Of a stretch of DNA of 64,000 nucleotides, positions 10,437-60,234 are shown piece by piece. Made by a program: the position numbers and the translations under genes. Position 1 is the stretch's first letter. Each line of letters begins with the position of its first letter. This DNA comes from Candidatus Sulfurimonas marisnigri (GTDB lineage Bacteria > Campylobacterota > Campylobacteria > Campylobacterales > Sulfurimonadaceae). The stretch is taken from the NCBI RefSeq assembly GCF_015265475.1, contig NZ_CP054493.1:1426001-1490000 (forward strand), written 5' to 3'. The notes beneath the pieces were generated by a model that ran no database searches, was not told the DNA's origin, and saw nothing but the letters and a program-made list of their open reading frames with translations.

Positions 10437-11088
10437 AAATTTAAAAATACTAAATGAATTTAATGTACTATATCTAGAAGATGATGACTCTTTACTAAAA
10501 CAAACAAGAGACATGTTAAGTGACTTTTTAAAAAATGTATATGCTGTAAAAACTTCAGCGGAAGCAAAGCAGGTGATTAAGCAGAAAAAAGTCGATGTTA
10601 TAATCTCAGATATCCTACTTGAAAATGAAAATGGAATAGATTTCTTAAGAGAGTTAAAAGAAGAAGATATAAATATACCGGCAATTTTAACAACTGCCCA
10701 TACAGATACAAAATATTTGCTCGATGCAATAAAACTAAAAGTAGAAAATTACATCGTTAAACCAATAAACTTAAAAGAGTTACTAAATACTCTTCACGAC
10801 ATACTTTTGCCTCTTATACAAGAAAGAGAAATTCATAAAAATTCAAATATAATAAGAACAATATCTGCCATAACTGATTCTAAACAAGTTGAGGTTGTTA
10901 AATTTTTATTTGATAACTTAAATGAAAAGAATGAACTTATCGCTTCATACAGTGACATAATGCAACAGATCTCCATATCTAAACCAACTCTTATAAAACT
11001 TTTTAAAGAACTCTCAGAGAAAAAGATTTTAGTAAAAGTTGCACATAAAACTTATAGATTTAATGATAAATCATTAGAATTAATTTAG
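10429..11088 (+). CDS. Response regulator with C-terminal helix-turn-helix
   Basis: A 219-residue regulator. Receiver domain: acidic pocket D18-D20, phospho-acceptor D61 in DVIISDILL, threonine in ILTTAH and the conserved lysine in YIVKPINL. The C-terminal 70 residues contain SISKPTLIKLFKELSEKKIL, a helix-turn-helix followed by a short wing, so it probably binds DNA. The start is the ATG of MTRNLKIL, which overlaps the kinase stop by eight bases; a longer frame upstream lies inside the kinase. It is the likely regulator of the adjacent formate dehydrogenase locus, based only on position. Confidence 0.88.
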   Translation: MTRNLKILNEFNVLYLEDDDSLLKQTRDMLSDFLKNVYAVKTSAEAKQVIKQKKVDVIISDILLENENGIDFLRELKEEDINIPAILTTAHTDTKYLLDAIKLKVENYIVKPINLKELLNTLHDILLPLIQEREIHKNSNIIRTISAITDSKQVEVVKFLFDNLNEKNELIASYSDIMQQISISKPTLIKLFKELSEKKILVKVAHKTYRFNDKSLELI

Positions 11089-11107
11089 GTAAAAATATAA
11101 TTAATTG

Positions 11108-11353
11108 TCATCTTTTTACGAAATATCTTACCGATGGAGTACTTGTATCTACATGTAAGACTTGAAATCCGTGGTTTCTCACATCTATTGGTATATTGTT
11201 GATGCTTTGCGGGCAATCGCTGATAATTTCAAGTATATCATCATCCTCAAGACTTCTTAGTGCTTCTAGTGTTTTTATGGCAGGATAAGGACATGGCTCA
11301 CCATGCATATCCAAACGATAAGTTGGTCTAGGAGCTTTAGTATTATTTTTCAT
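11108..11353 (-). CDS. fdhU: TusA/YedF-like sulfurtransferase-fold protein (FdhU type)
   Basis: An 81-residue TusA-fold protein with the family signature DMHGEPCPYPAIKTLEAL, whose CPYP cysteine is the predicted chalcogen carrier. The start is the second ATG, eight bases after AAGGA. The coding sequence overlaps the end of the YedE-like gene upstream, so they are co-translated. In Campylobacter jejuni the pair Cj1500/Cj1501 (fdhT/fdhU) was shown to be needed for selenium-dependent formate dehydrogenase. The same pairing here, between formate dehydrogenase and sel genes, supports a role in selenium delivery. Confidence 0.85.
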   Translation of the reverse strand: MKNNTKAPRPTYRLDMHGEPCPYPAIKTLEALRSLEDDDILEIISDCPQSINNIPIDVRNHGFQVLHVDTSTPSVRYFVKR

Positions 11354-12854: not shown

Positions 12855-13889
12855 ATGAATAACGAATCTAAATTAACTAAATTCGTTCAAGCAGCTGGTT
12901 GAGCAGCGAAGATGGGTCCGGGAGATCTAAAACATACAATTCGCTCACTTATTCCAGATAATGAAAATGTGCTTGTAGGATTTGAAAATAGTGAGGACGC
13001 TTCTGTTTTTAAGATAAATAAAAATGAAGCATTAGTCCAAACTGTTGATTTTATTACACCAGTTGTTGATGACCCGTTCGTGTATGGAAAAATCGCAGCA
13101 GCAAACTCTTTATCAGATATATTTGCAATGGGAGCAGAGGTAAAAACTGCTCTAAACATTGTAGGCTTTGATAAAACTAACCATGGCTATGAAGTTCTTA
13201 GCGAAATACTTAGAGGCGGAAATGAAAAGATAAAAGAGTGCGGTGGTGTTTTAATCGGCGGTCATACTATAGAGTCACCTGAAATGTACTATGGACTTAG
13301 TGTTACGGGGATGATACACCCTAGTAAAATTCTAAGAAACAATACTCCTAAAATAGGACATGTTTTAGTGTTGACTAAACCTATTGGTATGGGTATCTTA
13401 ACAACTGCTATAAAGAGAGACTTGCTTAAAATTGAGACTACTCTTGAGGCAGTGAAGGTTATGGAAACTCTCAGCTACTTGCCATCAAAACTTCTTAGTG
13501 TGTATGATGTGAGTGCTTGTACAGATATCACTGGCTTTGGTCTGCTCGGTCATGCTTTTGAGTCTACAAATGATGCTGTGAGCCTTAGTATAGATGCTAA
13601 AAGTGTCCCTGTTATGGCAGATGCATTTGATTTAGCAGACAGAGATGTAGTTCCTGGTGGAACAAAGAGAAATATGAAGTATTTAGAAGATAAGGTTACA
13701 TTTGTGGGAGATGCTATAAAGTATAAACTAATGTTTTGTGATGCACAAACATCAGGAGGACTTTTAATATCTATGAATGAAAAAGATGCTTTAGAGTATG
13801 TAAAAAGAGTTGAAGATTTGACTTATGGTTATGCGTGCATAATTGGTTCTATAATCCCAAGGGGAGATAGACCGATAATCGTGTACTAA
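12855..13889 (+). CDS. selD: Selenide water dikinase with TGA-encoded selenocysteine
   Basis: SelD makes selenophosphate from selenide and ATP. The frame open from 12912 lacks the N-terminus. Extending upstream through the TGA at 12900-12902 gives an ATG with AAGG before it and the sequence FVQAAG-U-AAKMGPGDL. That is the catalytic loop of the family with Sec16 in place of cysteine and K19 as the conserved lysine, so the protein is 344 residues. The metal-site aspartates (VQTVDFITPVVDDP) and the GFGLLGH and DAQTSGG motifs are intact. It heads the run selD, tRNA-Sec, selA, selB. A second, cysteine-type SelD is encoded further downstream. Making this enzyme itself needs selenocysteine insertion, which could act as feedback. 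Confidence 0.93.
12900..12928 (+). promoter_or_regulatory. Candidate SECIS of selD with its TGA
   Basis: After the TGA, AGAT (12910-12913) can pair with ATCT (12925-12928), enclosing GGGTCCGGGAG with a GGTC element as in known bacterial SECIS loops. The stem is weaker than that of fdhA, so the exact fold is uncertain. Confidence 0.5.
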
Positions 13890-13892
13890 GTT

Positions 13893-13992
13893 TGGTGAGA
13901 AGGCGAAGGAATCGAACCCCCCGAGGCGTTTACACAAAAACCTCCAATCAGGTTTGAAACCTGTGGTGCCCACCAGGGTCACATGCCCCCCA
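13893..13992 (-). tRNA. selC: tRNA-Sec (anticodon TCA)
   Basis: On the minus strand about 100 bases fold as a selenocysteine tRNA. The anticodon stem CAGG/CCTG closes loop TTTCAAA with anticodon TCA. There is a long variable arm (GGAGG...CCTC region), a T-arm with TTCGATT, a 3' strand GCCTTCTC, discriminator A and an encoded CCA. The length is close to bacterial tRNA-Sec and well above a normal tRNA. The 5' acceptor strand is GGGGGGC, which pairs with only seven of the eight expected positions (three G-U), leaving T992 opposite C. The D-stem has one A-G mismatch. It is antisense to its neighbours selD and selA. Confidence 0.88.
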
Positions 13993-14050
13993 AATGTTGT
14001 ACGATTATATTCTACTGTATTAAAAATAAAATACATATAAAAGGGTAAAA

Positions 14051-15400
14051 ATGTTTTTACTAAAATCTATTCCTAAGGTAGACAAGTTTATTGAGAATGA
14101 GCAGTTTAATGGTTTGGCCACCTCTCTTGTGGTTAGTATTACTCAAGAAGTTCTTCAAAGTTTAAGAGAAAACATTTTAAAAAACAAGGTAGAATCTTTC
14201 AGTGAAGATGAACTAGTTCAAACAGTTGTACAAAAGTATAACGAACTTACAAAACCATCTCTGCAAAAGCTTATAAATGCAACGGGCGTAATTGTGCATA
14301 CAAACTTAGGACGAAGCCTAATAGATACAAAAACATTTGATAAAGTAAAAGAGATAGTTACTAGTTACAATAACTTAGAATACGATTTAGAAAAAGGAAA
14401 AAGAGGAGAGCGATATTCTCATATCTCTAAACTAATATGTAGGCTTCTTGGATGCGAAGATGTTTTAATAGTAAACAATAATGCAAGCGCTGTCTTTTTG
14501 ATACTAAATACCTTTGCAAAGAAAAAAGAGGTAATAGTTAGTCGCGGTGAGCTTGTTGAGATTGGCGGCAGCTTTAGAGTTCCTGATGTAATGAAACATA
14601 GCGGTGCAAAACTTGTAGAGGTAGGAGCTACAAATAAAACACATTTTAGTGATTACGAAGATGCTATAAATGAAAAAACATCTATGCTTATGAAAGTACA
14701 TAAATCTAACTACTCTATCGAGGGCTTCAGCAGTGAAGTGGAGTTTAAAGAGTTGATAAAGCTGTCAAAGGAGAACAGCTTGATTGACTACTACGATATG
14801 GGAAGCGGTCATTTGGTTGATTTGCCTTATGGACTTGACATCTACGAACCATCGGTTTTAAAGTATATGAAAGAAGAGCCATCTCTATTAAGTTTTTCTG
14901 GTGATAAACTTCTTGGAAGCGTGCAAGCTGGAATAATAGTTGGTAAGAAAGAGTATATTGCAAAGTTAAAAAAGAATCAGCTCCTTAGAATGCTAAGAGT
15001 AGATAAGCTTACCCTAGCGATACTAGAGGAAAATATAAAATCAACTCTGCTTGGAAATATAGATGATATCCCTACTCTTAAGATGCTTTTTACAGAAGTA
15101 GATAAGCTAAAAGAGAATGCAAATATATTAAAGCGCAGTATCTATAATATTTGTACATGTAATATCCTAGAAACAAAAACAGTAATCGGTGGTGGGACTA
15201 CTCCAAATAGAACAATTCCTACGGTTGCCCTTGTCATAAAGATAAAAGAGTATAAGCCAGCAAAGATGGAGAAACTCTTTAGAGAGAAAAAAGTTATTGG
15301 TCGAATAGAAGATGACAAATTTTTACTTGATTTTAGAACAATAAACATAGATGAAATACCGCGCATAGAACAAATAGTTAAAGATATAGCTGATGTCTAA
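14051..15400 (+). CDS. selA: L-seryl-tRNA(Sec) selenium transferase
   Basis: SelA converts seryl-tRNA(Sec) to selenocysteyl-tRNA(Sec) with selenophosphate and PLP. The 449-residue length is normal. Family blocks are intact: INATGVIVHTNLGRSLI (76-91), RGERYSH (118-124), NNNASAV, and the PLP lysine K287 in FSGDKLLGS. An AGGG ribosome site precedes the ATG. Its stop overlaps the start of selB by eight bases, so they form a coupled pair. Confidence 0.97.
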   Translation: MFLLKSIPKVDKFIENEQFNGLATSLVVSITQEVLQSLRENILKNKVESFSEDELVQTVVQKYNELTKPSLQKLINATGVIVHTNLGRSLIDTKTFDKVKEIVTSYNNLEYDLEKGKRGERYSHISKLICRLLGCEDVLIVNNNASAVFLILNTFAKKKEVIVSRGELVEIGGSFRVPDVMKHSGAKLVEVGATNKTHFSDYEDAINEKTSMLMKVHKSNYSIEGFSSEVEFKELIKLSKENSLIDYYDMGSGHLVDLPYGLDIYEPSVLKYMKEEPSLLSFSGDKLLGSVQAGIIVGKKEYIAKLKKNQLLRMLRVDKLTLAILEENIKSTLLGNIDDIPTLKMLFTEVDKLKENANILKRSIYNICTCNILETKTVIGGGTTPNRTIPTVALVIKIKEYKPAKMEKLFREKKVIGRIEDDKFLLDFRTINIDEIPRIEQIVKDIADV

Positions 15401-17234
15401 TTTTATTATAGGTACTTGCGGTCACATTGATCATGGTAAAACTGCTCTAGTCAAAGCACTCAATGGCTTTGAAGGCGACACTACAAAAGAGGAACAACAG
15501 CGTGGTATTACAATAGATTTAAGTTTTTCAAATCTAAAAAAAGCACAACAAAACATAGCTATCATAGATGTGCCTGGGCATGAGAAGTTAGTTAAAAATA
15601 TGATAGCTGGTGCTTTCTCATTTGACTGTGTTATGATAGTTGTAAGTGCTGCTGAGGGTATAAAACCACAAACTGTTGAACATCTGGAGATATTAAATTC
15701 TCTTGGCGTTAAAAATGCTGTATTAGTAATCACTAAAAAAGATTTGCTAAATGAGAAAGAGCTTGACATAAATACATCTCTGATTCAGGAATTTATCTCA
15801 AAGTATGATTTTGACTTAAAGTTTGTCCATGCTGTTTCTATTTTTGATGACAGCTCAATCGAGATTTTAAAAGAGAAACTTTTTGAGTTGGATGCAGATA
15901 CAAAGATAGAAGAAAATTTCTTTAGATACTACATAGACAGAGTTTTTAGTGCAAAGGGAGCTGGGACAATTGTAACTGGAACTGTCTTAGGCAAACCTAT
16001 AAAACTTAATGAAAAAATATTCATTTGCGATTTAAAAAAAGAGATAAAAATTAAAAACATTCAAGTTCATGGTGATAATGCTATTGAAGCAAACATTTCA
16101 AATAGAACTGCTATTAATTTAAGCGGCATTGATTCAAAAACTATTAAAAGAGGTTTTCTAATCTCTAAAAAAGGGTATTTAAGAGGCTTTAACACTGTTG
16201 ATATATCCTTTAAAACTTTAAAAGACAAATATCTTTATCATGATAGACAATATTCAATTTATATAGGTTCACGAAAGATTGATGCAAAAATACTACTTTT
16301 TAATTCTGAAGAATCATTAGATAAAGGTTTTGCAACAATAAAAAGCAATGAAGAGATTTTTAGCATCTACAATGAAAAATTAATTATTAGAGATGGAAAT
16401 TTCACGGTTGCAGGGGGAATTATATTAAACCCTGTTTCTGACCCTATGAAAAAGAGTCAAAAGTTCAAGCTTTTGAGGGCTTTAGAGAAAAAAGAGATTT
16501 TTGAGGCTTATGGTATATTAATAAATGCACATAAAAAAGGTCTTGGACTAATCTCATCAGCGCAAAGATTTGCGCTTTCACATATAGAAGCACTTTGCTA
16601 TGCCAAAAAACTGGAGAACTGTTTCGTTGATGAGAAAGAATTGATTATCTACCCAATATCTACAAAAGAGATTATAAGAGATAATATAAAAAATATATAC
16701 ACTAAAAATAAGTATGCCCTACTCTCAAATACATCTATAAAACTAAGATTAACATGGGCAAGTGAAGGTTTTATTTACCTTGTATTAAATGAGCTTATAG
16801 AAGAAGAATTTTTAGTTAAAGACGGGAATTTATTTAAAAGTGCAGATATCACAGAAGATTTTAAAAGTTCTCTTGAGCAAATCGTGTTAAAAAGGTTGGA
16901 AGAAGAAGGTACATCTCCGACAGCTCCTTATAATATCTATGATGATTTAGACTTAGATAGAAAAGTAGGAGATGAAATACTAAAGTTATTATGTGTAAAA
17001 AAACAGGTAGTAAGACTGCAACATAACCTTTTCATTCACTCTACAAGTTTAAGCAATATTGTCTTGGAGATGAAGAATATAATAAAAGAAGATGGCTATA
17101 TTGATATATCAAACTTTAAAGAAAAATATCAACTTAGCAGAAAATATCTTGTAACCTATTTAGATTATCTAGATAATTTTTCTCAAATAAAAAAAGTAAA
17201 CAATAGAAGAGTTTTCTTAAATAAAACACTTTAG
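15393..17234 (+). CDS. selB: Selenocysteine-specific elongation factor SelB
   Basis: SelB is the EF-Tu-like GTPase that carries selenocysteyl-tRNA to UGA codons followed by a SECIS. The 613-residue protein has the P-loop GHIDHGKT (10-17), the switch RGITIDLSF, DVPGHEKLV and TKKDLL guanine motif. EF-Tu-like barrels follow (RVFSAKGAGTIVTGTVLG). The C-terminal half contains the winged-helix repeats that bind the SECIS. It overlaps selA. Together with selD, tRNA-Sec and selA it completes the insertion machinery needed by fdhA and the Sec-type selD. Confidence 0.97.
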   Translation: MSNFIIGTCGHIDHGKTALVKALNGFEGDTTKEEQQRGITIDLSFSNLKKAQQNIAIIDVPGHEKLVKNMIAGAFSFDCVMIVVSAAEGIKPQTVEHLEILNSLGVKNAVLVITKKDLLNEKELDINTSLIQEFISKYDFDLKFVHAVSIFDDSSIEILKEKLFELDADTKIEENFFRYYIDRVFSAKGAGTIVTGTVLGKPIKLNEKIFICDLKKEIKIKNIQVHGDNAIEANISNRTAINLSGIDSKTIKRGFLISKKGYLRGFNTVDISFKTLKDKYLYHDRQYSIYIGSRKIDAKILLFNSEESLDKGFATIKSNEEIFSIYNEKLIIRDGNFTVAGGIILNPVSDPMKKSQKFKLLRALEKKEIFEAYGILINAHKKGLGLISSAQRFALSHIEALCYAKKLENCFVDEKELIIYPISTKEIIRDNIKNIYTKNKYALLSNTSIKLRLTWASEGFIYLVLNELIEEEFLVKDGNLFKSADITEDFKSSLEQIVLKRLEEEGTSPTAPYNIYDDLDLDRKVGDEILKLLCVKKQVVRLQHNLFIHSTSLSNIVLEMKNIIKEDGYIDISNFKEKYQLSRKYLVTYLDYLDNFSQIKKVNNRRVFLNKTL

Positions 17235-17289
17235 AAGTAGGAACATTTTTATTTGCTCCAATCAAAATAGTAATATTTTACACTAATTA

Positions 17290-18381
17290 CTAAAAGAGTG
17301 CCAAGTATGCAAGTACCTCTTCACTGGAACCTCTAAACTTCACATTTTCTGAGCGATTTAGTATCTGATAGTCATACATGGGGTCATAGTATTCAACTAA
17401 AAGATATTCAACCCACTCTTTATAAGCATCAAGTGCCCCGCTTCTAATCTGTTCATTATATGCATTTTCAAAAATAGTTGTTACATGTATATATCTCTCA
17501 CCACCAATTCTTCTCTTTATTCTACTCATTGCACTGAGGATATCATCTCTCCACTCTGCTAGTGCATCAATAAATCCTCCATCTTTATACATTTTTTGCG
17601 CCTCTGTTACATATTCATTAAATGTAGTGTCTATTCTCTCATTAATTGGCGTCTCGAGAATAACAAGAGCAGCTGTTAAAAGATAGTTTGCCAAGCTCTT
17701 TGGCATATATGTACTTCCTATGTTTTTCCCTTCATCCTCAAATACCAGATACTTAAATCCAGTGTCTAGTTTTTTTATAATATCATAGGCTAGATTATTT
17801 TCAAAATTAATTTGACTTGGCTGAGGCGTTAGTTTTCTGCCAAATGATGACCCTCTATGATTTGCCAAGCACTCAAGGTCAATGGAATTTTCTATTTTTT
17901 TGAGCAGTATAGTTTTTCCAGAGCCGGTACGCCCTCCGAGGACAATTGGATTAAAGTGTTTAGGTGACTCTTCAAGTTGTGTCAATAAGTAGTTTCTAAA
18001 TGCTTTATAACCACCTTTAAATCGTGTAATATTATATCCTGCTTCATAAATCCATTCTTGAGATATTTTAGAACGCTGCCCCCCTCTAAAGCAATAAAGA
18101 ATAGCGTTTGGGTTTGCATCTATAAAATCCAACCATGACTTAATTCTAGTCTCTTTTTTTGTCCCTGAAACCAATTCATGACCAAGTTTTATTGCCTTAG
18201 TATTTCCCTTTTCTTTGTAGTGAATGCCGACAAGATGTCTCTCTTCATCATTCATAAGTAGAAGGTTTGTAGCATTATTAAATGCACCTTTTTCAAACTC
18301 TACTGGAGCACGAACATCAATCAATGGTGTATTGTTTAATACTATTGACTTAAAATCACTACATAGATACATATCTGACAT
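17290..18381 (-). CDS. mnmH: tRNA 2-selenouridine synthase
   Basis: MnmH (SelU/YbbB) replaces sulfur by selenium in the wobble uridine of certain tRNAs using selenophosphate. The 363-residue protein has an N-terminal rhodanese domain with the catalytic C97 in [10 protein letters not shown], matching Cys97 of the E. coli enzyme, and a P-loop GGRTGSGKT at 149-157. It starts at a TAATG junction, overlapping the stop of the cysteine-type selD by one base, so enzyme and selenophosphate source are co-translated. Confidence 0.95.
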
Positions 18382-19412
18382 TAAATAACCTCAATCAGGT
18401 GTTTACCTTTTTTAGTGGTTTCACCAATAGCTTCAAGCTCAAGACCAGACTTTTTTGTTATTTCTAAGAATCTCTCTTTTAGATTTTTTTTAACTATGAC
18501 CAGTAGACCTCCGGAGGTTTGAGCATCACACAATATTTCTCGTTGAAGCTGTGTCATCTCGCTTATTTTACTTCCATAACTCATAAAGTTTTTTCTAGAT
18601 CCGCCAGGTATGCAGCCAAGTTCTCTGTATTTTTCTACATTTGGTAACAATGGAACTTTATCAAACCATATAGTTGCCCCAATTTTGCTCCCTGTACATA
18701 TTTCACCCAAATGCCCTAGTAGCCCAAAACCTGTGACATCTGTCATTGTAACAACACCCTCAAGAAGTGATAGTTCTGCACCAATTTTGTTGAGTGTAGT
18801 CATTGCTTCTATCGCAGGTTCCAAGTGGCCAGGTTCTATTTTCTTTTGCTTTTGTGCAGTCGTTAAAATACCTATGCCCAAAGCTTTTGTAAGAAAAATA
18901 AGACAATCTTCCTCCGCAGTTGTGTTGCGCATAAGATTTTTATTTTCTACTATCCCTGTCACAGCAAGTCCAAAAATTGGCTCAGGAGAGTCTATTGAAT
19001 GACCACCAGCAAGGGGGATACCTGCATCTTCACATACAGAGCGTCCACCATCAATAACTTCTCTGGCTACATTTGCAGAGAGTTTGTCTACAGGCCATCC
19101 AAAGATAGATATTGCCATCAGAGGACGTCCACCCATTGCATAAATATCACTCAGTGCATTTGTGGCTGCAATACGACCAAACGTAAAAGCATCATCCACA
19201 ATTGGCATGAAAAAATCTGTTGTAGAGAGAACTGACGTACCGTTTCCTAGGTCAAATGCTGCTGCATCATCTTTATCCTCATTTCCTACAAGAAGTTGAG
19301 GATATTGGATATTTGCTCGTTTACTTTGTAACATCTCATCTAAAAGCATTGGTGAAATCTTACATCCACACCCTGCTCCATGACTATACTCTGTAAGTCT
19401 TACTTGTTCCAT
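18381..19412 (-). CDS. selD: Selenide water dikinase, cysteine form (second SelD)
   Basis: A 343-residue SelD with the catalytic loop [13 protein letters not shown], where C15 and K18 match Cys17 and Lys20 of the E. coli enzyme. Other motifs ([35 protein letters not shown]) are intact. The ATG has AAGG upstream. It is clearly diverged from the selenocysteine-type SelD in this window and is closer to the enterobacterial type. It is the first gene of a two-gene operon with mnmH, so it probably supplies selenophosphate for tRNA modification and does not depend on UGA read-through. Confidence 0.95.
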
Positions 19413-32264: not shown

Positions 32265-33233
32265 TTAAAAATCTAAAGGGCTAATTACCTTAGCTTTATT
32301 CATTTCAGAAACTACATGTGTGTATATCATGGTAGTTTCAACACTCTTGTGTCCTAAAAGTTCCTGTATACTTCTTAAGTCTATCCCTGCTTGCAAAAGA
32401 TGCGTTGCGTAAGAGTGTCTAAATATATGAGAAGTTACTCTTTTATTTATGTTTGCCTTATTTGAAGCTTGTTTTATATTTCTACCTAAGGTAGCAGGAT
32501 GAATATGATGCCTTCTAATAGTTTCACTTCTTGGATCTTTTGAAAGTTTGTTCATGGGAAATAGAAACTGCCATTTTGTTTCATACTTAGCACTTGGAGC
32601 TTTCTTTTCTAAAGCAAATGGCATGTACACACTTCCATATCCATCTGCTAAATCTTTTTTATGTATATCTGTAGCTAGTTCAACTTGCATAATCAGCTTT
32701 TGTTTTAATTTATTTGGTAATGGAACAGACCTATCTTTCAGGCTTTTAGAATCCCAAACATAAATTTTATCAAATCCAAAATCTATATCTTTTAGTCTTA
32801 AATTTAAAACTTCACTCATTCGTAGACCGCATCCATACATCAAGGAGACTAAAAGGTTATATATGCCATTTATATTTCCAATAACCTTATCAACCTCTTC
32901 ACGGGTCAAAACTACTGGTATATGTTTTCTCTCTTGTGCTCTTAATGCTTGTATGTTCCACTCACTCATATCTACACCTAATACTTCTTTATATAAAAAT
33001 AGTAATGCAGAAAAAGCTTGATTTTGAGTTGTAGGCGAAACTTTATTTTTAACTGCTAGACTTGTAAGGTATTGCTCAATCTCAAACTTACCCATCTCTA
33101 TAGGATGCTTTTTGTTATGAAAAAATATATAACACTTTATCCAATATACATAGGTTCTTTCCGTTGAAATACTGTAATGTTTAAACCTAATTTTGTCACG
33201 AACAATATCAAGAAGTTTCTTTTTCAAACTCAT
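32265..33233 (-). CDS. intI: Integron integrase (IntI-type tyrosine recombinase)
   Basis: IntI recombines attI with attC sites to insert and excise gene cassettes. The 322-residue protein has the full tyrosine-recombinase set: Arg in [35 protein letters not shown] with the catalytic Tyr. Between boxes I and II it carries the patch that separates IntI from XerC/D, seen as [13 protein letters not shown] and [12 protein letters not shown]. The ATG of MSLKKKLL is chosen with AAAGGA upstream. It faces away from the cassettes on its other side, as in known integrons. The gene looks intact. Confidence 0.95.
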
Positions 33234-33502
33234 TATCAATCCTTTCACTTAAGTAACATTATGTTCTTTTAATGGGTTATTTTCTAAATAACATACAAAA
33301 TGTTCTGTTATTTGCTTTTAAAGCATTAATAGATCATCTATTGTTTAAGGATTATATGTGTTTTTTATCTTTTAGAGCAACATTATGACAAATTGTCATA
33401 TTTTTAACTATATTTAATTTATTAACACACATATATAGTGTTAGTTATTTATCTGATTGGATGTTTTTATGATAATATGTTCATTGAATAAATAGTTATA
33501 TG
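33234..33502. other. Probable attI and promoter region of the integron
   Basis: The 289-base gap between intI and the first cassette gene is very AT-rich. GTTATAT at 33496-33502 resembles the 3' boundary triplets of the attC sites (GTTAAAC, GTTATAC, GTTATGT) and lies 21 bases before the first cassette gene, so it is the likely attI/cassette 1 junction. An inverted repeat TATGACA-AAT-TGTCATA at 33384-33400 could be an operator or integrase site. The cassette promoter must be here or inside intI, but no consensus is clear. Confidence 0.5.
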
Positions 33503-33522
33503 AAAATAGAATTGGAGTTTAA

Positions 33523-33861
33523 ATGAAAAAATTACTGTTATTACTACTTATTAGTATTGAGATATTTGCTGGCACACAAATGTGTGGTTCAGGAACAGTG
33601 ATTAGATTACTCAGTGATGATAATAAAGGTAGTCGCCATCAAAGATTTATAATAAAAGAGCCATCTGGAAGAACATTGTTAATTGCACATAATATTGACT
33701 TAGCACCAAAAATATATTCACTTCAAAAAGGTGGGCTCATAAAGTTTTGTGGTGAATATGAAAATAATTCAAAAGGTGGTGTTGTACATTGGACACATCA
33801 TGATCCACAAAAACGTCACACTGCCGGTTGGCTAGAATATAATGGTAAGAAGTACCAGTAA
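33523..33861 (+). CDS. Cassette 1: exported DUF3465-like protein
   Basis: A 112-residue protein with a signal peptide (MKKLLLLLLISIEIFAG), two cysteines (in MCGSG and KFCGEY) and the ending GGVVHWTHHDPQKRHTAGWLEYNG, which I recognise as the DUF3465 type often seen in integron cassettes. Function unknown. TTGGAG lies upstream of the ATG. The stop is two bases before attC1. Calling it a periplasmic nucleic-acid or ligand-binding OB-fold protein would be speculation. Confidence 0.8.
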   Translation: MKKLLLLLLISIEIFAGTQMCGSGTVIRLLSDDNKGSRHQRFIIKEPSGRTLLIAHNIDLAPKIYSLQKGGLIKFCGEYENNSKGGVVHWTHHDPQKRHTAGWLEYNGKKYQ

Positions 33862-33862
33862 C

Positions 33863-33931
33863 ATATAACAAGTACGAGGAGCGCAATAGTTTCCCCTACG
33901 GCGAAACTATTGCTCACGACAAACGTTAAAC
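33863..33931 (+). repeat. attC1 cassette recombination site
   Basis: An imperfect inverted repeat of about 69 bases. It starts ATATAACAAG, has an inner stem GCAATAGTTTC/GAAACTATTGC around CCCTACGGC, and ends ACAAACGTTAAAC with the core GTTAAAC (GTTRRRY). A lone unpaired C on one arm fits the extrahelical base of attC sites. It is nearly the same as attC3. Confidence 0.88.
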
Positions 33932-33949
33932 ATACAAAGGAGAAGTAAA

Positions 33950-34120
33950 GTGCCATTATCAGATTTAGGAAGTTGGGCTAGTATAGTTGGATTAATATTT
34001 AGTTTTATTGCTGGTTTTGGAATTTGTAAAATTACTACAAAAAATAATAATCAAAAAAATAAATTTTGGTCATTTTTTACATTTGGTGATACAAAGCAAG
34101 ACAATAACAGTAGCCAATGA
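33950..34120 (+). CDS. Cassette 2: small single-span membrane protein (56 residues)
   Basis: Starts at GTG with AAAGGAG eight bases upstream. The sequence begins MPLSDLGSWASIVGLIFSFI, a short polar start followed by one membrane segment (about 10-27), then a basic Asn/Lys-rich cytoplasmic tail. Its TGA overlaps the ATG of the 1052-residue gene (ATGA), so the two are translationally coupled. The tight pairing suggests a two-part system in which this protein anchors or controls the large partner (inference). Confidence 0.75.
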   Translation: MPLSDLGSWASIVGLIFSFIAGFGICKITTKNNNQKNKFWSFFTFGDTKQDNNSSQ

Positions 34121-37100
34121 TTCAAATGTTTAATAGTATAAAAAATCTTATTCAATTTGGCAATAACACTCAAACTAATAATATTTCAATTAATCCAAAA
34201 ATTGATGTATCAATTAGAAGGATAGAAAAAGATTTTTTTGATGGTAACTTTAAACAAGCAATAGATGATTTAGACTCATTAATTACTGATAATAGCAATG
34301 AGTCTTTAAAATCAGTGAAATATCAACTGCTAGTTTTAAAAGCAAGTTATTTAATGCAATTTAGAAAGATTGATGAGTTTAGAGAAGTTATTGAACTCAT
34401 TGAAACAAAATATAAAGATTTTATTGAAATTAAGTTCAAAGAATTTAAATTAACTTTAATGGCATTTAATAAAAATAAAGAGTTTTTTGAATTTTCAAAA
34501 CAATTAAGACTCGAAACTCCAAACAGCAAACCGCAAGGACATTTTGATATTGTATTTTATTTGAATAGCGGAGATGTTCCAAGAGCGAAAGAAGTATTTG
34601 AGAAAGAGATAATAAATACACAATATCGAGATAAATTATTGTTAATTGGTGGACACATATATTCTAATTTGTATGAATATAATAACAATGACATAAATAT
34701 TTTTAACAATGCAGATAAATACTACAGAGAAGCATTAGAAACAAAAGAATTGAGTTTTCTTGACAAATTACAAATCAAAGGATTTTATGCCACTTATTTA
34801 TTAAATAGTAATATACAAAATAAAATACCAAATAGGGAGCTACTGTTTAGTGTTGAAGACTACAAAAAATCTTTAGATATTGTTTTGGAAAATGAAAAAT
34901 ATTTTAATGTTGATTATATGAAAATAGTAATAGAAAATTATATTCATATACTTGTATATCTTGGTTTCAAAGATGAATATAATGAATTTTATAAAAAATA
35001 TGAAAACTTTTTATCTATAAAACACTATATCCAATATTCTGGTGTTAATGAAGTTGAATATGAACATAATAAAATTCAAGAATATATTTTAAAGAAGCAA
35101 GAACTTAATGATTTATTAGTTTATTCTTCTTTGATTTTAAATAGTTCAGATAATAATATTGAAGAAATTACAAAATTTCTTCAAACCAAGACGGAGTATT
35201 TATTTAAACATACTTTTATCCCCTATGCTTATGTAAAGGGGCAAATCTTATTACATAATGAAATTGCAACTGATCTCATAAAATATTTAGAAGAGCATAA
35301 ATACAACGATATAGATACTCTATTAGCTTTTATCGAAACAGCTCACTATACTCATGCTGAAATATCAAATAAAGATATTGATAAGCTTATAGAATTTAGC
35401 TTAAATGATAATACTTTTCAAGCTAGAATTTTAGATGTAATAAAATTATTAAAAAAACTTGATAGAAGAAGAGAATATCTAGATTTAGCATTAAATAAAC
35501 AAGACATATTTAGTAGTATCATTTTTGAAACTTTAAAAATATGTGAAAAAGATGAAAACTTATACTTCAAAGATTTTGAATATTTCATAAGTAATATTCA
35601 AAATCAAGATTATTACAGTGCAATAATTGGAAATATTTATTTAAAACATGACAAACCTGATAAAGCATTTAATTATTACTATTTAGAAAGCAAAAAAAAT
35701 GATAATCAAGAAGCCATGTTTGCTTTATTAAAAGTTATATGGGATCATTTTAATATGTCTCACAAAATCATTGAAAACTCTAAACAAATAGAAATATTTA
35801 ATTTGCTGATTGCAAAAAGAGAACATTTGAAACTTGAAGATTTAATCTTTTTATTGATGTATGCTATTCATATTTTAAAAGATACAAGGCAAATTTTACC
35901 CATACTAAATCAGGAATTATTAAATCTAGATATAAAAAATCTAGATAATTCCATACAGGTAATGCTATCAAATATATTCACACAAACATCATTTGGAGTA
36001 TTATCTAACTACAATGATATGTTTTTATACGATGCAAATTTGTGCCTAGTACAAGACAGTAAAACATATTTTCAAAATAATTTCACAATTTTAGAAGAAA
36101 ATAAAAATAATTTTGGACTACATCTAGTTGATGATAATGACTATTTTTTAAAAATACAAGATAATACATGTAAAAAAGAATCACTTTTTCATAGGCTGGT
36201 TGGACCTTTTGCCTTTAGATGTGAGAATCCAAATATGATTGAAATGAAACTTGATAAAGATAGTGAAGACCCGTTACATGAACTTTTTGATTTTATGAAT
36301 CAACGAACTAATTATACAAAAGATTTATTTCAAAGATATAGTGATGAAATACATATTGGTTTATATGCTTTAGCACATGATTATAAAAATTATTTTACTT
36401 TAATACCATATATTTTAAATAACAAAACTATAAATCTTAATAGCTTACATATAAATTATTTACCAAAAGAGAGAAAGAAAATATTAACACTATCATCAAT
36501 TATTTTTTTAAATGAAATAAATCAATTAGAAGTTGTATTAAAAAGAGAAGACATCGTGATACAGCAAACTTTAGTTAATTGGTTAAAGGATTATTCACAA
36601 AAAGTTGACTATACAAATATGCCACAAGATTTTACATATTTGGATGAAGAAAGTCATAAATTTATTCCTGTTACTGATGATAGCATTAAACAAGCTGAAA
36701 CATTTAAAGCTTCAATATTTAAAATAATAAATGCAATTTTAGTATGTGAAATTATTGATGATACTTCTGAAAATTTACCAATCAAAAAAACTTATTCTAT
36801 GTTAGCACCACATATCGGTGGTCAAGAATACAAAGCTTTAGCATATTGTATTAATCATAATTATCAAATAATATCCGAAAATAATGTTTTTGATATGTTG
36901 TTCGATACTATGAAATACAACAAAGTTTTTATTAGTAACTCTATAGCACTATTAGCAGGAACATTAAAACGTGACACCTATAGAGGTCTAATTATTGATT
37001 TACATATGAAAAAATATAAATATGTTTTAAATGAAAACTATGTAGATGGATTACTAGATTTTATGAAAAAGCATGATGTTTCAAACTTAATAGATGAAGA

Positions 37101-37275
37101 AAAAGAACTTATTAAAATAGCAAATAACTATGGATTTTTAGACAAGATAAAACAGTATTATAGAAATAAATTTAAAGTTTTATATCCAAAAACAGTCCCA
37201 CCAATCAAAACTGATTTTGATAAAAACATAGAAAAGATTTTTAGTTTAATTGAAATTAAGATACAAAATGTCTAA
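34117..37275 (+). CDS. Cassette 2: 1052-residue repeat protein with PIN-like C-terminal region
   Basis: I do not recognise this as a named protein. Residues from about 20 to 620 are helical repeats of TPR or TPR-like type (for example FDGNFKQAIDDLDSLITDN and YIYLKHDKPDKAFNYYY-like pairs). The C-terminal 250 residues have blocks resembling a PIN nuclease: ILTLSSIIFLNEINQLEVVL, then GGQEYKALAYCINHNYQIISEN. The glutamate of GGQE is present, but the first acidic residue is not evident and the third is Glu rather than Asp. No signal peptide. Very AT-rich, even for this window, which suggests transfer. Its stop TAA lies inside attC2, so it is part of a 3.4-kb cassette, far larger than usual. Confidence 0.7.
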   Translation: MIQMFNSIKNLIQFGNNTQTNNISINPKIDVSIRRIEKDFFDGNFKQAIDDLDSLITDNSNESLKSVKYQLLVLKASYLMQFRKIDEFREVIELIETKYKDFIEIKFKEFKLTLMAFNKNKEFFEFSKQLRLETPNSKPQGHFDIVFYLNSGDVPRAKEVFEKEIINTQYRDKLLLIGGHIYSNLYEYNNNDINIFNNADKYYREALETKELSFLDKLQIKGFYATYLLNSNIQNKIPNRELLFSVEDYKKSLDIVLENEKYFNVDYMKIVIENYIHILVYLGFKDEYNEFYKKYENFLSIKHYIQYSGVNEVEYEHNKIQEYILKKQELNDLLVYSSLILNSSDNNIEEITKFLQTKTEYLFKHTFIPYAYVKGQILLHNEIATDLIKYLEEHKYNDIDTLLAFIETAHYTHAEISNKDIDKLIEFSLNDNTFQARILDVIKLLKKLDRRREYLDLALNKQDIFSSIIFETLKICEKDENLYFKDFEYFISNIQNQDYYSAIIGNIYLKHDKPDKAFNYYYLESKKNDNQEAMFALLKVIWDHFNMSHKIIENSKQIEIFNLLIAKREHLKLEDLIFLLMYAIHILKDTRQILPILNQELLNLDIKNLDNSIQVMLSNIFTQTSFGVLSNYNDMFLYDANLCLVQDSKTYFQNNFTILEENKNNFGLHLVDDNDYFLKIQDNTCKKESLFHRLVGPFAFRCENPNMIEMKLDKDSEDPLHELFDFMNQRTNYTKDLFQRYSDEIHIGLYALAHDYKNYFTLIPYILNNKTINLNSLHINYLPKERKKILTLSSIIFLNEINQLEVVLKREDIVIQQTLVNWLKDYSQKVDYTNMPQDFTYLDEESHKFIPVTDDSIKQAETFKASIFKIINAILVCEIIDDTSENLPIKKTYSMLAPHIGGQEYKALAYCINHNYQIISENNVFDMLFDTMKYNKVFISNSIALLAGTLKRDTYRGLIIDLHMKKYKYVLNENYVDGLLDFMKKHDVSNLIDEEKELIKIANNYGFLDKIKQYYRNKFKVLYPKTVPPIKTDFDKNIEKIFSLIEIKIQNV

Positions 37276-37323
37276 CAAAGCCTAGCAGTGAACGCAGTGC
37301 GTCACTGAAGTCAAACGTTATAC
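37270..37323 (+). repeat. attC2 cassette recombination site
   Basis: 54 bases from GTCTAAC (perfect RYYYAAC) to GTTATAC (core). The inner arms CAGTG and ACGC pair with GCGT and CACTG around AGT, with one unpaired A as expected for an extrahelical base. It is shorter than attC1 and attC3 and has a different inner stem, so this cassette has a different origin. Confidence 0.88.
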
Positions 37324-37338
37324 AAAGGAATTAATATA

Positions 37339-37659
37339 ATGAGTTTAGTTTTATTTTTATCAGCATTATTTTTTGGAATGTTAGCAGCTCGTGCGGGAAC
37401 AGTATTCGCAAGAAGTGGTATTCAACCTACAAATCCATTTGTAGTTATAATAAATTTTGGTTCAATGATTTCAACTTTTGCAATTGTTGTTTTTGGGTTT
37501 CTAAATCTTTCATGGTGGATACCAATCGTAGGTTTTATAGGTATTTCATTAATTGCCGGTATATTAATAAATCATTCAACAATGACATTTTTCTATAAAG
37601 CCTTGCCTGTAACAGGCTTAATAGCAATCGTGATTAATACATATGCATGGATAGTTTAG
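37339..37659 (+). CDS. Cassette 3: small multi-span membrane protein
   Basis: A 106-residue protein with about four hydrophobic segments and few charges. AAAGGA lies upstream. No family recognised. It is three bases before the next gene in the same cassette, so the two probably act together. Confidence 0.7.
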   Translation: MSLVLFLSALFFGMLAARAGTVFARSGIQPTNPFVVIINFGSMISTFAIVVFGFLNLSWWIPIVGFIGISLIAGILINHSTMTFFYKALPVTGLIAIVINTYAWIV

Positions 37660-37662
37660 TAA

Positions 37663-38148
37663 ATGTATAACAAAATTGACAAATGGGCTGATAGAGTCTA
37701 TTCTGAAACTGATTTTGGTAGAAGTATTGCTACTTCAGTATCTGGAATAATAGGTTTAGTAATTTATTTAATAATTAACGATTGGGTTATTGCTGCTTTT
37801 TCATCAATTATAACTTTTCCAATTGTTAGAATAATTTCTACAAGTCTTAATGAAAAAATCAATTTTTCTTCAATGCAAAAAAAGCATATGAAATCAGTTG
37901 AAGATGCTTATCATAGATTAAGTAATGGTGAAAAAGAAGTAATTCAAGCTTTTGTAACTGCTGGTGGAACCTCACTTACTTATTCACATATAAATAGTTT
38001 AGGCATATCAGCACCAGCAGTTGAAACTTTAATTCAGAGAGAAATAATATGGAGTTCCATGACAGCTGATGGAATGCGTGAAACTTTTGCTTTAGATACT
38101 GAAGTTTTTGATATTGCACAAAAATTAGTTGAGCTAGAAAACTCCTAA
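37663..38148 (+). CDS. Cassette 3: two-span membrane protein with cytoplasmic domain, SieB-like layout
   Basis: 161 residues: a short N-terminal helix, two membrane segments (about 25-60), and a soluble C-terminal domain with LSNGEKEVIQAFVTAGGTSL and AVETLIQREIIW, which looks like a winged helix. This arrangement resembles superinfection-exclusion protein SieB of phages (two spans plus a small cytosolic domain beginning with a similar EKE..I..F pattern). The likeness is by eye only. The stop lies within attC3. Confidence 0.65.
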   Translation: MYNKIDKWADRVYSETDFGRSIATSVSGIIGLVIYLIINDWVIAAFSSIITFPIVRIISTSLNEKINFSSMQKKHMKSVEDAYHRLSNGEKEVIQAFVTAGGTSLTYSHINSLGISAPAVETLIQREIIWSSMTADGMRETFALDTEVFDIAQKLVELENS

Positions 38149-38211
38149 CAAGCACGAGGAGCGAATAGTTTACCCTGAGGGACAACTATTCGCTCACGAC
38201 AAACGTTATGT
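38143..38211 (+). repeat. attC3 cassette recombination site
   Basis: About 69 bases from TCCTAAC to the core GTTATGT. The inner stem GCGAATAGTT pairs with AACTATTCGC around TACCCTGAGGGAC. The outer sequences AACAAGCACGAGGAGCG and GCTCACGACAAACGTTA nearly repeat those of attC1, showing a homogeneous attC family in this array. Confidence 0.88.
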
Positions 38212-38233
38212 ATAAAATAAAACAGGGAAAAAT

Positions 38234-38392
38234 ATGAAAAATACATTATTTTTTTTAATATTATTATCAATATCTATAATGTTTTTTGAGTTTTATTTTT
38301 ATTGTTTAAACTACACCCCTGAGAATGAATCTCCACTTTTACTGTTTAAAGAAAAAAATATTCACCCTAGCTTAATAGTAATTGCTATCTAG
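38234..38392 (+). CDS. Last cassette: small hydrophobic ORF (52 residues)
   Basis: Starts MKNTLFFLILLSISIMFFEF, a signal-anchor-like helix, followed by about 30 polar residues. AGGGA lies upstream. It directly follows attC3, so it begins a further cassette, but no attC is visible after it. The cassette may have lost its site, or the chromosome resumes here. Confidence 0.5.
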   Translation: MKNTLFFLILLSISIMFFEFYFYCLNYTPENESPLLLFKEKNIHPSLIVIAI

Positions 38393-38394
38393 TG

Positions 38395-38403
38395 TGCTAT
38401 AAT
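38395..38403 (+). promoter_or_regulatory. Extended -10 promoter upstream of cysS
   Basis: TGCTATAAT is a perfect extended -10 element located directly after the last cassette ORF and before the small ORF and cysS. It probably restores chromosomal transcription beyond the integron. Confidence 0.5.
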
Positions 38404-38436
38404 AATGCACATATTTTATACACACAAAAGATACAA

Positions 38437-38547
38437 ATGACAGCACTACACAATCCTTATACAAAGCAAAAAGCGACAAATCTCGGTATACATTCCGATT
38501 TGCTTACCAAAGAAAAAATAGATAAAAAACTTGAAATCTTAAAATAA
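38437..38547 (+). CDS. Short ORF before cysS (36 residues), doubtful
   Basis: MTALHNPYTKQKATNLGIHS and then a Lys-rich end. It lies 34 bases after a good -10 element and 88 bases before cysS. The ribosome site is weak. It may be a remnant or a leader peptide; no function seen. The rest of this gap holds nothing else I can name. Confidence 0.3.
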   Translation: MTALHNPYTKQKATNLGIHSDLLTKEKIDKKLEILK

Positions 38548-38635
38548 AACTTTTATAAAAGTTGCAAAGAATAAGTTGCCAAACATAGTGCTTTAAGAAA
38601 CAAAATAAGAAGTTTTTAAAAAGGAAAATACCTAC

Positions 38636-40036
38636 ATGTATATTTACGATTCAGTTCAAAAAACAAAACGAGAGTTTACTCCGCTAGAGGATGCAAAGGT
38701 CTCACTTTATGTTTGTGGACCGACTGTTTACGACGATGCTCACCTAGGACATGCAAAATCTGCTTTGGTTTTTGACCTGTTAACACGTGTGCTGAGTGCC
38801 AATGGTTACGATGTGACTTACGCGAGAAATATCACTGATATAGATGACAAGATAATTAAAAAAGCAGCAGAGCAAAACAAAGATATAAAAGAGATTACAG
38901 ACTTTTATACAGATGCTTTTCATAAAGAGATGGAAGCTATCGGTGTATCACGTCCAACGATTGAACCAAAAGCTACAGAGTCATTAGAGGTTATGATAGA
39001 GCTTATACAAAAGCTCATAGAGAAAAACCACGCATACACAACTGCCGAAGGTGATGTTTACTTTGATACTGCTAGTGACAGCGAGTATCTCAAACTCTCT
39101 TCAAGAGTTCAAGAAGAAGATGAAAAGCAACAAAGGGTTGAGAGTTCATCTGCCAAAAAAAATCCTGCTGATTTTGCTTTATGGAAAAGCGTAAAAGACA
39201 ACACTATTACCTTTCCTTCCCCTTTTGGTGCAGGTCGCCCAGGTTGGCACTTGGAGTGTTCAGCTATGATAGAAAAATATCTTGCACGTCCAAACAGTGA
39301 GTTTGCCGTAGATATTCACGGTGGAGGGGCTGACCTCCTTTTTCCACATCATGAGAATGAAGCGGCACAAACTAGATGCGGGACTAACCATGCACTTGCA
39401 AACTACTGGATGCATAACGGTTTTGTAAATATAGATGGTGAAAAAATGTCTAAGTCTTTGGGAAACAGCTTCTTTTTAAAAGATGCTCTAAAAATTTATG
39501 ACGGAGAAGTTTTAAGATTTTATCTTTTAAGCACTCACTATAGAAGCAACTTCAACTTTAACACCGAAGATTTAGCATCTTCTAAAAAGAGACTAGATAA
39601 GATTTACAGACTTAAAAAACGCCTTTTCGGCTTGGCAGAAAATAGTGATAAGACACCTTTTCAAAATGAACTCTTACATGTACTGAGCGATGATATGAAT
39701 GTATCGAGTGCCTTGGCTCTTATTGATGAGATGATTTCAAATGCAAACGAGACTTTAGACACTGCCGGTAAACATAAAGAGCTTAAGCGTGAGACAATCT
39801 CTAATCTAGCCTACATTGAAACTATTTTAGGCTTTGGTGTTAAAAATCCTTTTGAGTACTTTCAGTTTGGAGTCGATGAAGAGACAAAAGCAAAAATCGA
39901 TGTGTTGATTGCATCAAGAGATGAGGCTAAAAAAATTAAAGATTTCGCAACTTCCGACAAACTTCGTGATGAGATTTTAGCCTTTGGTGTAACTATAATG
40001 GATACACCACAAGGGACTTTTTGGGAAAAGGTGTAA
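38636..40036 (+). CDS. cysS: Cysteinyl-tRNA synthetase
   Basis: Charges tRNA-Cys. The 466-residue class I synthetase has the zinc and HIGH region YVCGPTVYDDAHLGHAKS, the central GRPGWHLECSAM and HGGGADLLFPHHENE blocks and the KMSKS motif GEKMSKSLGN. AAAAAGGAAAA precedes the ATG. A diverged copy of its 3' end survives at 40737-40853. Confidence 0.97.
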   Translation: MYIYDSVQKTKREFTPLEDAKVSLYVCGPTVYDDAHLGHAKSALVFDLLTRVLSANGYDVTYARNITDIDDKIIKKAAEQNKDIKEITDFYTDAFHKEMEAIGVSRPTIEPKATESLEVMIELIQKLIEKNHAYTTAEGDVYFDTASDSEYLKLSSRVQEEDEKQQRVESSSAKKNPADFALWKSVKDNTITFPSPFGAGRPGWHLECSAMIEKYLARPNSEFAVDIHGGGADLLFPHHENEAAQTRCGTNHALANYWMHNGFVNIDGEKMSKSLGNSFFLKDALKIYDGEVLRFYLLSTHYRSNFNFNTEDLASSKKRLDKIYRLKKRLFGLAENSDKTPFQNELLHVLSDDMNVSSALALIDEMISNANETLDTAGKHKELKRETISNLAYIETILGFGVKNPFEYFQFGVDEETKAKIDVLIASRDEAKKIKDFATSDKLRDEILAFGVTIMDTPQGTFWEKV

Positions 40037-58812: not shown

Positions 58813-60234
58813 ATGAAAATCATTATTATAATTGAATTACTTATTGTATTTATTATTGGAAACTATATCACTGGCTGTGCATCTACCCCTACTACTATTA
58901 GTAGCAGCAGTAAAAACAATCTAAACCTTGCTTCATTGCAAAGCCAAATAACAGCCGTCAATAAATACCCAGCATGTATTGAAAGCATAGACAACCCTTG
59001 TACTGAAGTTCAACTAATCGCTGTAAAACAAAATAGTGAACTTATTAAGTACATTATTAACCCAGCGAAAGAGGTTCAATTAATTGCAATGAAAGAGGAC
59101 CCTTCCACGATAATGTACATCAAAAGTCCGGATAAAGAGGTTCAGCTAATTGCAATAAAACACAACACTGACTATATTAGATACATACAAAACCCTGATA
59201 AAGAGATACAACTTATATCTGTAAATAAAGACCCTTCAGTAATTATATACATCAATAATCCTGATAAAGAAGTCCAGCTTACTGCTATTAAACAAAATTT
59301 CGACCTCATTAAGTATATTAAAAACCCAGACAAAGAAGTTCAACTTGTTGCAATAAAGCAAAATCCTGAGCTAATTGAGTATATAAAGAACCCAGACAAA
59401 GAAATTCAACTTATTGCTGTCAAACATAACGTAAACCTTATTAAAGACATTCAAAATCAACATAGAACAGTTCAGCTTATTGCAATAAATGAAAATCCTG
59501 AGCTTATTGAGTATATAAAGAACCCAGACAAAGAAATTCAACTTATTGCCATTAAGAAAAATCCTAGTCTTGTTAAATATATTAAAAATAAAGATAAAGA
59601 GGTTCAGATTTATGCAATTAGGCACAATGCAAATCTAATTGAATACATAGAAAATCCAGATAAAGAAGTCCAACTTACTGCAATTAAACAAAACCCAGAA
59701 CTTATTAAATATATAAAATATCCAGATAAAGAAGTTCAACTTATTGCTGTTAAGCACAGACCTGAACTTATTGAGTATATAGAAAATCCATATAAAGAAG
59801 TTCAATTTATTGCTGTTAAAGAAGATTCAGGACTAATTACATATATAAATAATCCAGATACTGAAGTTCAACTATTAGTTTATAAAAAAATCTATTCTAG
59901 AAATAAACCAAAAAATTATTTAATCTCAGATAAAAGTATAAAGATTCAAATTACTGACTCAAATCTAAATATAAGTAATAAAACAACTAAGTCAATAAAA
60001 ATCATCTCTATAATAGAGCATTATGGAGATGAGGAATATCCTCTTAGTTCGTTATTTATTTATCCAAATAAAGACAAAAGTATTTATCTTCCATTTAGAA
60101 GATCTTTTATAATTAATTCATTAGAGCAAAAATTCAAATATGGATTTTCAATTGAGTATGTAATTGATAATTCTAATAAAGTTTTTAGTATAAATGGGGT
60201 AAAAGCTTATGAAGCAATAGAGTTTATTAAATAA
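58813..60234 (+). CDS. Repeat lipoprotein with about 14 copies of a 22-residue unit
   Basis: 473 residues. A signal peptide ends in the lipobox ITGC, so the protein is probably lipid-anchored at Cys22. Residues 50-355 are tandem 22-residue units of the form DKEVQLIAIKQNPELIKYIKNP (13 full copies and a partial one, plus a degenerate first copy), similar to the DUF4116-type repeats. The last 115 residues are a separate domain of beta type. The DNA repeats are 66 bases each and well diverged. Function unknown; a surface or periplasmic binding role is a guess. Confidence 0.8.
   Translation: MKIIIIIELLIVFIIGNYITGCASTPTTISSSSKNNLNLASLQSQITAVNKYPACIESIDNPCTEVQLIAVKQNSELIKYIINPAKEVQLIAMKEDPSTIMYIKSPDKEVQLIAIKHNTDYIRYIQNPDKEIQLISVNKDPSVIIYINNPDKEVQLTAIKQNFDLIKYIKNPDKEVQLVAIKQNPELIEYIKNPDKEIQLIAVKHNVNLIKDIQNQHRTVQLIAINENPELIEYIKNPDKEIQLIAIKKNPSLVKYIKNKDKEVQIYAIRHNANLIEYIENPDKEVQLTAIKQNPELIKYIKYPDKEVQLIAVKHRPELIEYIENPYKEVQFIAVKEDSGLITYINNPDTEVQLLVYKKIYSRNKPKNYLISDKSIKIQITDSNLNISNKTTKSIKIISIIEHYGDEEYPLSSLFIYPNKDKSIYLPFRRSFIINSLEQKFKYGFSIEYVIDNSNKVFSINGVKAYEAIEFIK

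Follow-up and report, generated by a model that had tools for sequence, protein, structure and literature searches.

Amyloid signalling by paired proteins is known from both bacteria and fungi. In the bacterial amyloid signalling sequences (BASS; Dyrka et al., 2020, via PMC7889193 and PMC8086366), a short motif lies at the C-terminus of a Bell-domain effector with a transmembrane (TM) helix and again at the N-terminus of a NOD-like receptor (NLR), and the two genes are adjacent or overlapping (PMC7889193). The RHIM-like peptide of BASS3 aggregates and is amyloid-forming (PMC8086366). In the fungal pairs HET-S/NWD2 and HELLP/PNT1, the motif of the receptor serves as template for the prion-like one of a membrane-killing protein, and PNT1 also has tetratricopeptide repeats (TPR) (PMC7889193). 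Here we describe a gene pair in a 64,000-nucleotide stretch of the single-contig, 2.49 Mb genome of Candidatus Sulfurimonas marisnigri (G000:C1:1426001-1490000, 'the window'). The pair, which occupies integron cassette 2, encodes a 56-residue membrane protein and a 1052-residue protein with a TPR solenoid and a PIN fold, and we lean, by a small degree, towards reading it as a two-gene amyloid-signalling abortive-infection module.

The pair resembles BASS in its overlapping genes, in the placement of its motifs at the effector C-terminus and receptor N-terminus, and in the TM helix of the proposed effector; one homologous locus, L044, closely resembles BASS3. BASS receptors are NLRs with an NTPase, whereas the receptor here is a TPR-PIN protein; BASS effectors are Bell helical bundles, whereas here they have ~52-61 residues (117 in locus L042) and are mostly one TM helix plus a tail; and BASS hosts are filamentous bacteria, whereas this one belongs to the Campylobacterota. 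Likewise, the fungal receptors are NLRs with a nucleotide-binding domain and the fungal effectors are of the HeLo/HELL type; the likeness to these pairs is one of function. A distant relationship links the large protein to the 'TPR-GreAB-C-PIN' family (Pfam PF20698, PIN-TPR-GreABC), whose members, like it, have a long TPR region and a C-terminal PIN domain, but all matches to that family fell below its cut-off, and the N-terminal motif and the small TM partner belong to the system here. A literature search on TPR-GreAB-C-PIN found no paper, although its coverage was limited and parts may have been described earlier.

Matched motifs in the gene pair

The small gene (33950-34120, + strand, GTG start) and the large gene (34117-37275, + strand) overlap as ATGA, as the first-pass annotation had claimed. 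The 5' side is intact in six other loci, and every one of them has, immediately upstream, a small membrane open reading frame (ORF) that overlaps the large gene or ends at most ~15 bases from it. In the window's small protein, a TM helix is predicted at residues 10-26 (33977-34027, + strand), with no Lys or Arg before it and four among the 15 residues after it, and the same charge pattern surrounds the first TM segment in all 13 small proteins collected. This N-out/C-in pattern predicts a cytosolic tail.

The tail carries a motif, FWSFFTFGDTKQDNNSSQ (34064-34117, + strand), in common with the N-terminus of the large protein, whose own motif, NSIKNLIQFGNNTQTNNISIN, spans residues 6-26 (34132-34194, + strand) in a part of the AlphaFold model with very low confidence (pLDDT <50 for residues 1-22). 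Written as tail and N-terminus, the pair reads FWSFFTFGDTKQDNN / IKNLIQFGNNTQTNN in the window, FFQFGNNEQNN / FFQFGDNTQSN in L042 and SIKIGDNNDISNSFN / SVQVGDENVISDSFN in L044, while in L032 KLSSFFNFGSIKQEN is present in both partners; the motif thus co-varies by locus between tail and large-protein N-terminus. L044 is unlike the others in both partners (cognate score 51, non-cognate at most 24), and its two copies score 42 and 34 against the BASS3 RHIM-like peptide of PMC8086366 (p <0.0005 and ~0.001). The RHIM tetrad VQVG (as defined in PMC9444067) occurs in the large protein of L044, and IQFG of the window is close to that tetrad. At the DNA level the two motif copies are identical at 43 of 45 bases in L032 and at 23 of 45 in the window; the near-identity in L032 (9355-9600) suggests a recent event, either duplication of the motif or gene conversion between the two genes.

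Among the seven TPR-PIN pairs, the summed cognate tail/N-terminus score was 319, against 149 +/- 11 for shuffles (maximum 202 of 5000), and 0.2% of re-pairings reached the cognate sum. When 85 adjacent pairs of a small-TM ORF and its downstream neighbour, from the loci collected by then, were scanned, the five highest ranks (z 8.5-12.8) all went to members of this module, with the best pair outside it at z 2.9. Matching short motifs in adjacent genes, a feature of BASS, are found for the set and, to a moderate degree, for the window pair alone. The matched motif at tail and N-terminus points to the small protein as effector and the large protein as sensor. This divides the roles otherwise than the first-pass annotation, which had proposed a large scaffold-plus-effector with a small membrane partner: the pair and its association with defence hold, while the motif would move the effector from a nuclease in the large protein to the small one.

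From this arrangement we infer an amyloid state for the motifs, a trigger, membrane damage leading to killing, and a role in phage defence. The large protein would act as sensor and hub, with a disordered N-terminal amyloid-type motif, a TPR solenoid that would bind the trigger and, at the C-terminal end, a PIN fold that probably lacks normal nuclease activity; the small protein would be the effector, with one TM helix oriented N out/C in and the cognate motif on its cytosolic tail. Upon infection the sensors would cluster, their motifs would nucleate a cross-beta assembly, and this would template the tails of the small membrane proteins, whose TM helices might then oligomerise and breach the inner membrane, such that the cell would die or stop growing before phage release.

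The small TM protein in Lamassu/ABC-3C loci

A hidden Markov model (HMM) built from four of the small proteins also picked up small TM proteins without a TPR-PIN partner. In L077 it matched a 57-residue protein (E 2.7e-7) whose tail reads SSFKDITAGRDVVGRDKK; the next gene, for CTD9, starts MSPSFENITAGRDFVGNDK, and MC5 and an LmuB-type ATPase come after it, which makes this a Lamassu/ABC-3C system. In this locus, which is from another genus, the system (8867-11346) adjoins a degraded integron integrase in three pieces and a partial attC. The match in L078 (E 0.003) is weak by itself, and a different matched motif there precedes CTD10 and MC6; some other weak HMM matches, such as L079, look like chance and were set aside. 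A search of plasmids with the CTD9 protein led to systems from Ensifer, Agrobacterium and Allorhizobium (L081, L082, L084), all with a small TM protein (56-64 residues) encoded upstream that carries a matched GDIVGRDK-type motif (z 12.0 in L082 and 13.8 in L084). The motif match was weaker in an Acinetobacter CTD10-type locus (z 3.9).

Lamassu/ABC-3C systems (LmuA-LmuC-LmuB; CTD, MC and ATPase) sense through an SMC-like ATPase complex, unlike the TPR-PIN protein, yet L077, L078, L081, L082 and L084 carry a small TM protein of the same kind, and its tail motif matches the N-terminus of the CTD component. The module, with other matched motifs, thus occurs in Lamassu/ABC-3C loci of Campylobacterota and Alphaproteobacteria. 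LmuA normally bears an N-terminal effector domain, and the LmuA effectors in the Lamassu review are fused enzymatic ones only (PMC10586767). Since that domain occupies the same position, the small TM protein appears to replace it in the loci observed here. In L086 (Sulfitobacter) CTD9 has, by eye, a hydrolase-like N-terminal region and the small protein is absent (586-1857); L087 (544-1857) resembles it.

Over 13 pairs, a set found partly by looking for the same arrangement (the Lamassu loci), the cognate sum was 658 against 326 +/- 45 for re-pairings, and none of 100,000 re-pairings reached 658. A broader proposal, to which we give a little under even chances, is that a plug-in effector of ~55-65 residues (a TM helix plus a tag) serves unrelated sensors via an amyloid-type motif that is private and co-evolves. 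On the same tentative footing, these sensors would include TPR-PIN proteins and Lamassu/ABC-3C complexes. If true, this would explain how Lamassu-type systems without a fused enzyme could kill.

The large protein and the competing explanations

An AlphaFold model of the large protein, made from eight aligned sequences (mean pLDDT 79), predicts an all-helical TPR solenoid at residues ~27-625 (34195-35991, + strand). By structure comparison residues ~23-420 match TPR superhelices, which bears out the TPR-like repeats of the first-pass annotation, although by sequence the repeats score below threshold in the window protein and Pfam TPR matches are weak in its homologues. Beyond the solenoid the model places a small beta-containing region at ~642-690 (without a family match where GreAB-C would lie), a stretch of low confidence after ~700, and an alpha/beta domain from ~788. 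Residues 628-1052 were also modelled on their own, and PIN domains made up most of the 42 best rows aligned by VIA-align (Z up to 8.8), the best being 1v8p (Z 8.8, root-mean-square deviation 3.7, 130 of 133 aligned); Foldseek gave weak matches, again with 1v8p best (E 0.36, probability 0.87). PF20698 matched two homologues over nearly the full profile, below its cut-off (L045, E 0.0017; L040, E 0.038), and a Pfam search gave no PF20698 match for the window protein. The VIA-align comparison and the matches in homologues together support the call of a PIN fold (residues 782-964; 36460-37008, + strand), so that the PIN-like end proposed earlier stands as a fold.

That this end is the working nuclease is not supported. 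Of the four acidic active-site residues conserved in PIN ribonucleases, the first Asp gives way to Thr or Ser (T791/S793) and the second acid to Asn or Asp, while E904 and E921 are retained, as placed by alignment and secondary-structure mapping without superposition, and with an active site that looks degenerate, PIN catalysis, and with it killing by a nuclease, is doubtful. This bears on the main rival, in which the small protein serves as an anchor: through the motif pair it would hold a TPR-PIN RNase at the inner membrane, and an active PIN domain would kill via tRNA or mRNA. The top PIN-fold matches are mostly VapC-type proteins, E921 is invariant and E904 widely conserved in the alignment of large proteins, and PF20698 is named for its PIN domain; yet besides the replaced acids, the small-TM module is also found with PIN-less ABC-3C components, and we regard the anchor as unlikely.

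We think it less likely still that the pair is a toxin-antitoxin system, with the small protein as toxin (or antitoxin), bound via the motif and neutralised by the large one until phage interference sets killing free. The tight ATGA coupling, the resemblance of the small TM ORF to a toxic peptide, and the AbiE and HipA genes near homologous loci would all fit, but few would expect an antitoxin to be a TPR solenoid of 1000 residues, amyloid receptors have their motif in the same place (PMC7889193), and in Lamassu the motif partner is the effector-docking component. A further alternative retains the defence pair without the amyloid: the motifs would build a signalling complex as ordinary peptides, by dimerisation or beta-addition. 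Homotypic binding alone would suffice for motif matching and co-variation, and the resemblance to RHIM/BASS3 is significant in one pair only (L044); the length of the motifs, their N/Q/G-rich composition, disorder and the gene layout nevertheless fit amyloid signalling motifs, and we rate this alternative as rather improbable.

The genes around the homologues bear on defence itself. In L031 and L043 the pair lies within a type I restriction-modification (RM) operon (hsdM-hsdS-[pair]-AbiEi-AbiEii-hsdR), in L032 within a type I RM island (hsdR-AbiLi-AbiLii-hsdS'-[pair]-hsdS-hsdM, where AbiLi/AbiLii are RloA/RloB-like and the hsdS' fragment was recognized by eye) and in L044 within a type III RM island; a Schlafen-AlbA_2 gene adjoins the pair in L045 and a HipA gene that in L042. 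These RM and Abi neighbours, with the integron location, support a defence role, and the association with defence suspected from the window alone was recovered in the search for homologues in defence islands. That the pair is instead a housekeeping or stress scaffold, in the integron by chance, is highly implausible: L040, L041 and L046 do lie among ordinary-looking genes, but the distribution is sporadic and placement in RM/Abi islands is repeated.

Of 399 genomes of the order, six, its own among them, contained a relative of the large protein, and an alignment-based scan brought in more; these relatives come from Sulfurospirillum, Sulfurovum, Sulfurimonas, Arcobacter and other Epsilonproteobacteria, and all named ones are Campylobacterota. 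None was found in plasmids or phages (tblastn) or in IMG/VR scans. A search with PF20698 across 100 genomes of the order gave mostly short or sub-threshold PIN-like matches and did not flag this locus, no PADLOC model matches the large protein, and family searches with both proteins (Pfam, NCBIfam, PADLOC, PHROGs and PDB sequences) returned no significant match.

Several observations weigh against the amyloid-signalling reading. The pair in the window gives modest values (shuffle p ~0.02, z 2.8): the cognate partner ranks third among 13, and a control pair from cassette 3 reached z 2.9, above it. With its own similarity moderate, the case for the window pair rests on the family. Against the BASS3 peptide, the sole BASS peptide compared, neither window motif reaches significance (p 0.25 and 0.14). 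The Lamassu loci were reached partly via the arrangement, so that the 13 pairs served in part for discovery as well as for the test. Duplication or gene conversion could create motif copies and keep them alike. Family search found no NTPase of the NACHT/NB-ARC type in the large protein, whose conservation extends to the PIN-fold end, so that this end may have a role, and its relatives were found only in Campylobacterota.

The integron, the rest of the window and what the pair may mean

The cassette array lies next to an integron integrase, IntI, which is divergent from it (32265-33248, - strand; TIGR02249, E 4.6e-126, with a Phage_integrase match). Three attC sites flank the cassettes, with conserved right ends (AAACGTTA in all three) and a foldable bottom strand: site 1 at 33866-33937 (AACGTTA at 33922, z -4.8), site 2 at 37268-37323 (AACGTTA at 37314, z -2.6) and site 3 at 38142-38213 (AACGTTA at 38202, z -6.0), all on the + strand and supported by alignment. 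Within 33201-38700, AACGTTA occurs at these three positions only, and a search of the genome that allowed up to three mismatches found nothing else closely matching the 3' end of attC. Cassette 2 (33926-37317, + strand) measures 3392 bp from cut point to cut point, as set by the AACGTTA positions, which agrees with the integron cassette of unusual size (~3.4 kb) first noted here; it is AT-rich (23.8% G+C against 32.2% for the whole window).

Cassette 1 encodes a DUF3465 protein (33523-33861, + strand; PF11948, 4.6e-44). Cassette 3 (37339-38148) has two adjacent ORFs on the + strand, a 106-residue hydrophobic protein without a significant family match (37339-37659) and a weak SieB-like (superinfection exclusion) protein (37663-38148; PF14163, 4.3e-05, below cut-off); the cassette is possibly a second one with a role in defence.

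Elsewhere in the window, a selenium gene cluster recognized by eye (12912-19412) contains tRNA-Sec (13897-13991), selA- and selB-like ORFs and two selD-like ORFs (12912-13889 and 18381-19412). A formate-dehydrogenase-like protein is split over adjacent minus-strand ORFs (4234-4794 and 1963-4212), possibly at an in-frame TGA read as selenocysteine. A 473-residue protein of short repeats, of the type NPDKEVQLIAIKHN, is encoded at 58813-60234.

This integron carries a two-gene candidate immune module far above the usual cassette size. The findings suggest an antiviral two-part cell-death switch of the kind known in fungi and filamentous bacteria, with a sensor of another type in this case. A 2021 review asks whether bacterial signalling amyloids exist outside NLR pathways (PMC7889193), and this locus and its relatives are a candidate answer. 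The candidate is a small one: two genes, both with a tag of ~20 residues, variants in nature whose tags differ, and a second, parallel set from Lamassu. If the broader proposal of a plug-in effector is true, amyloid immune signalling would reach beyond NLRs and multicellular bacteria, and could travel in integron cassettes.

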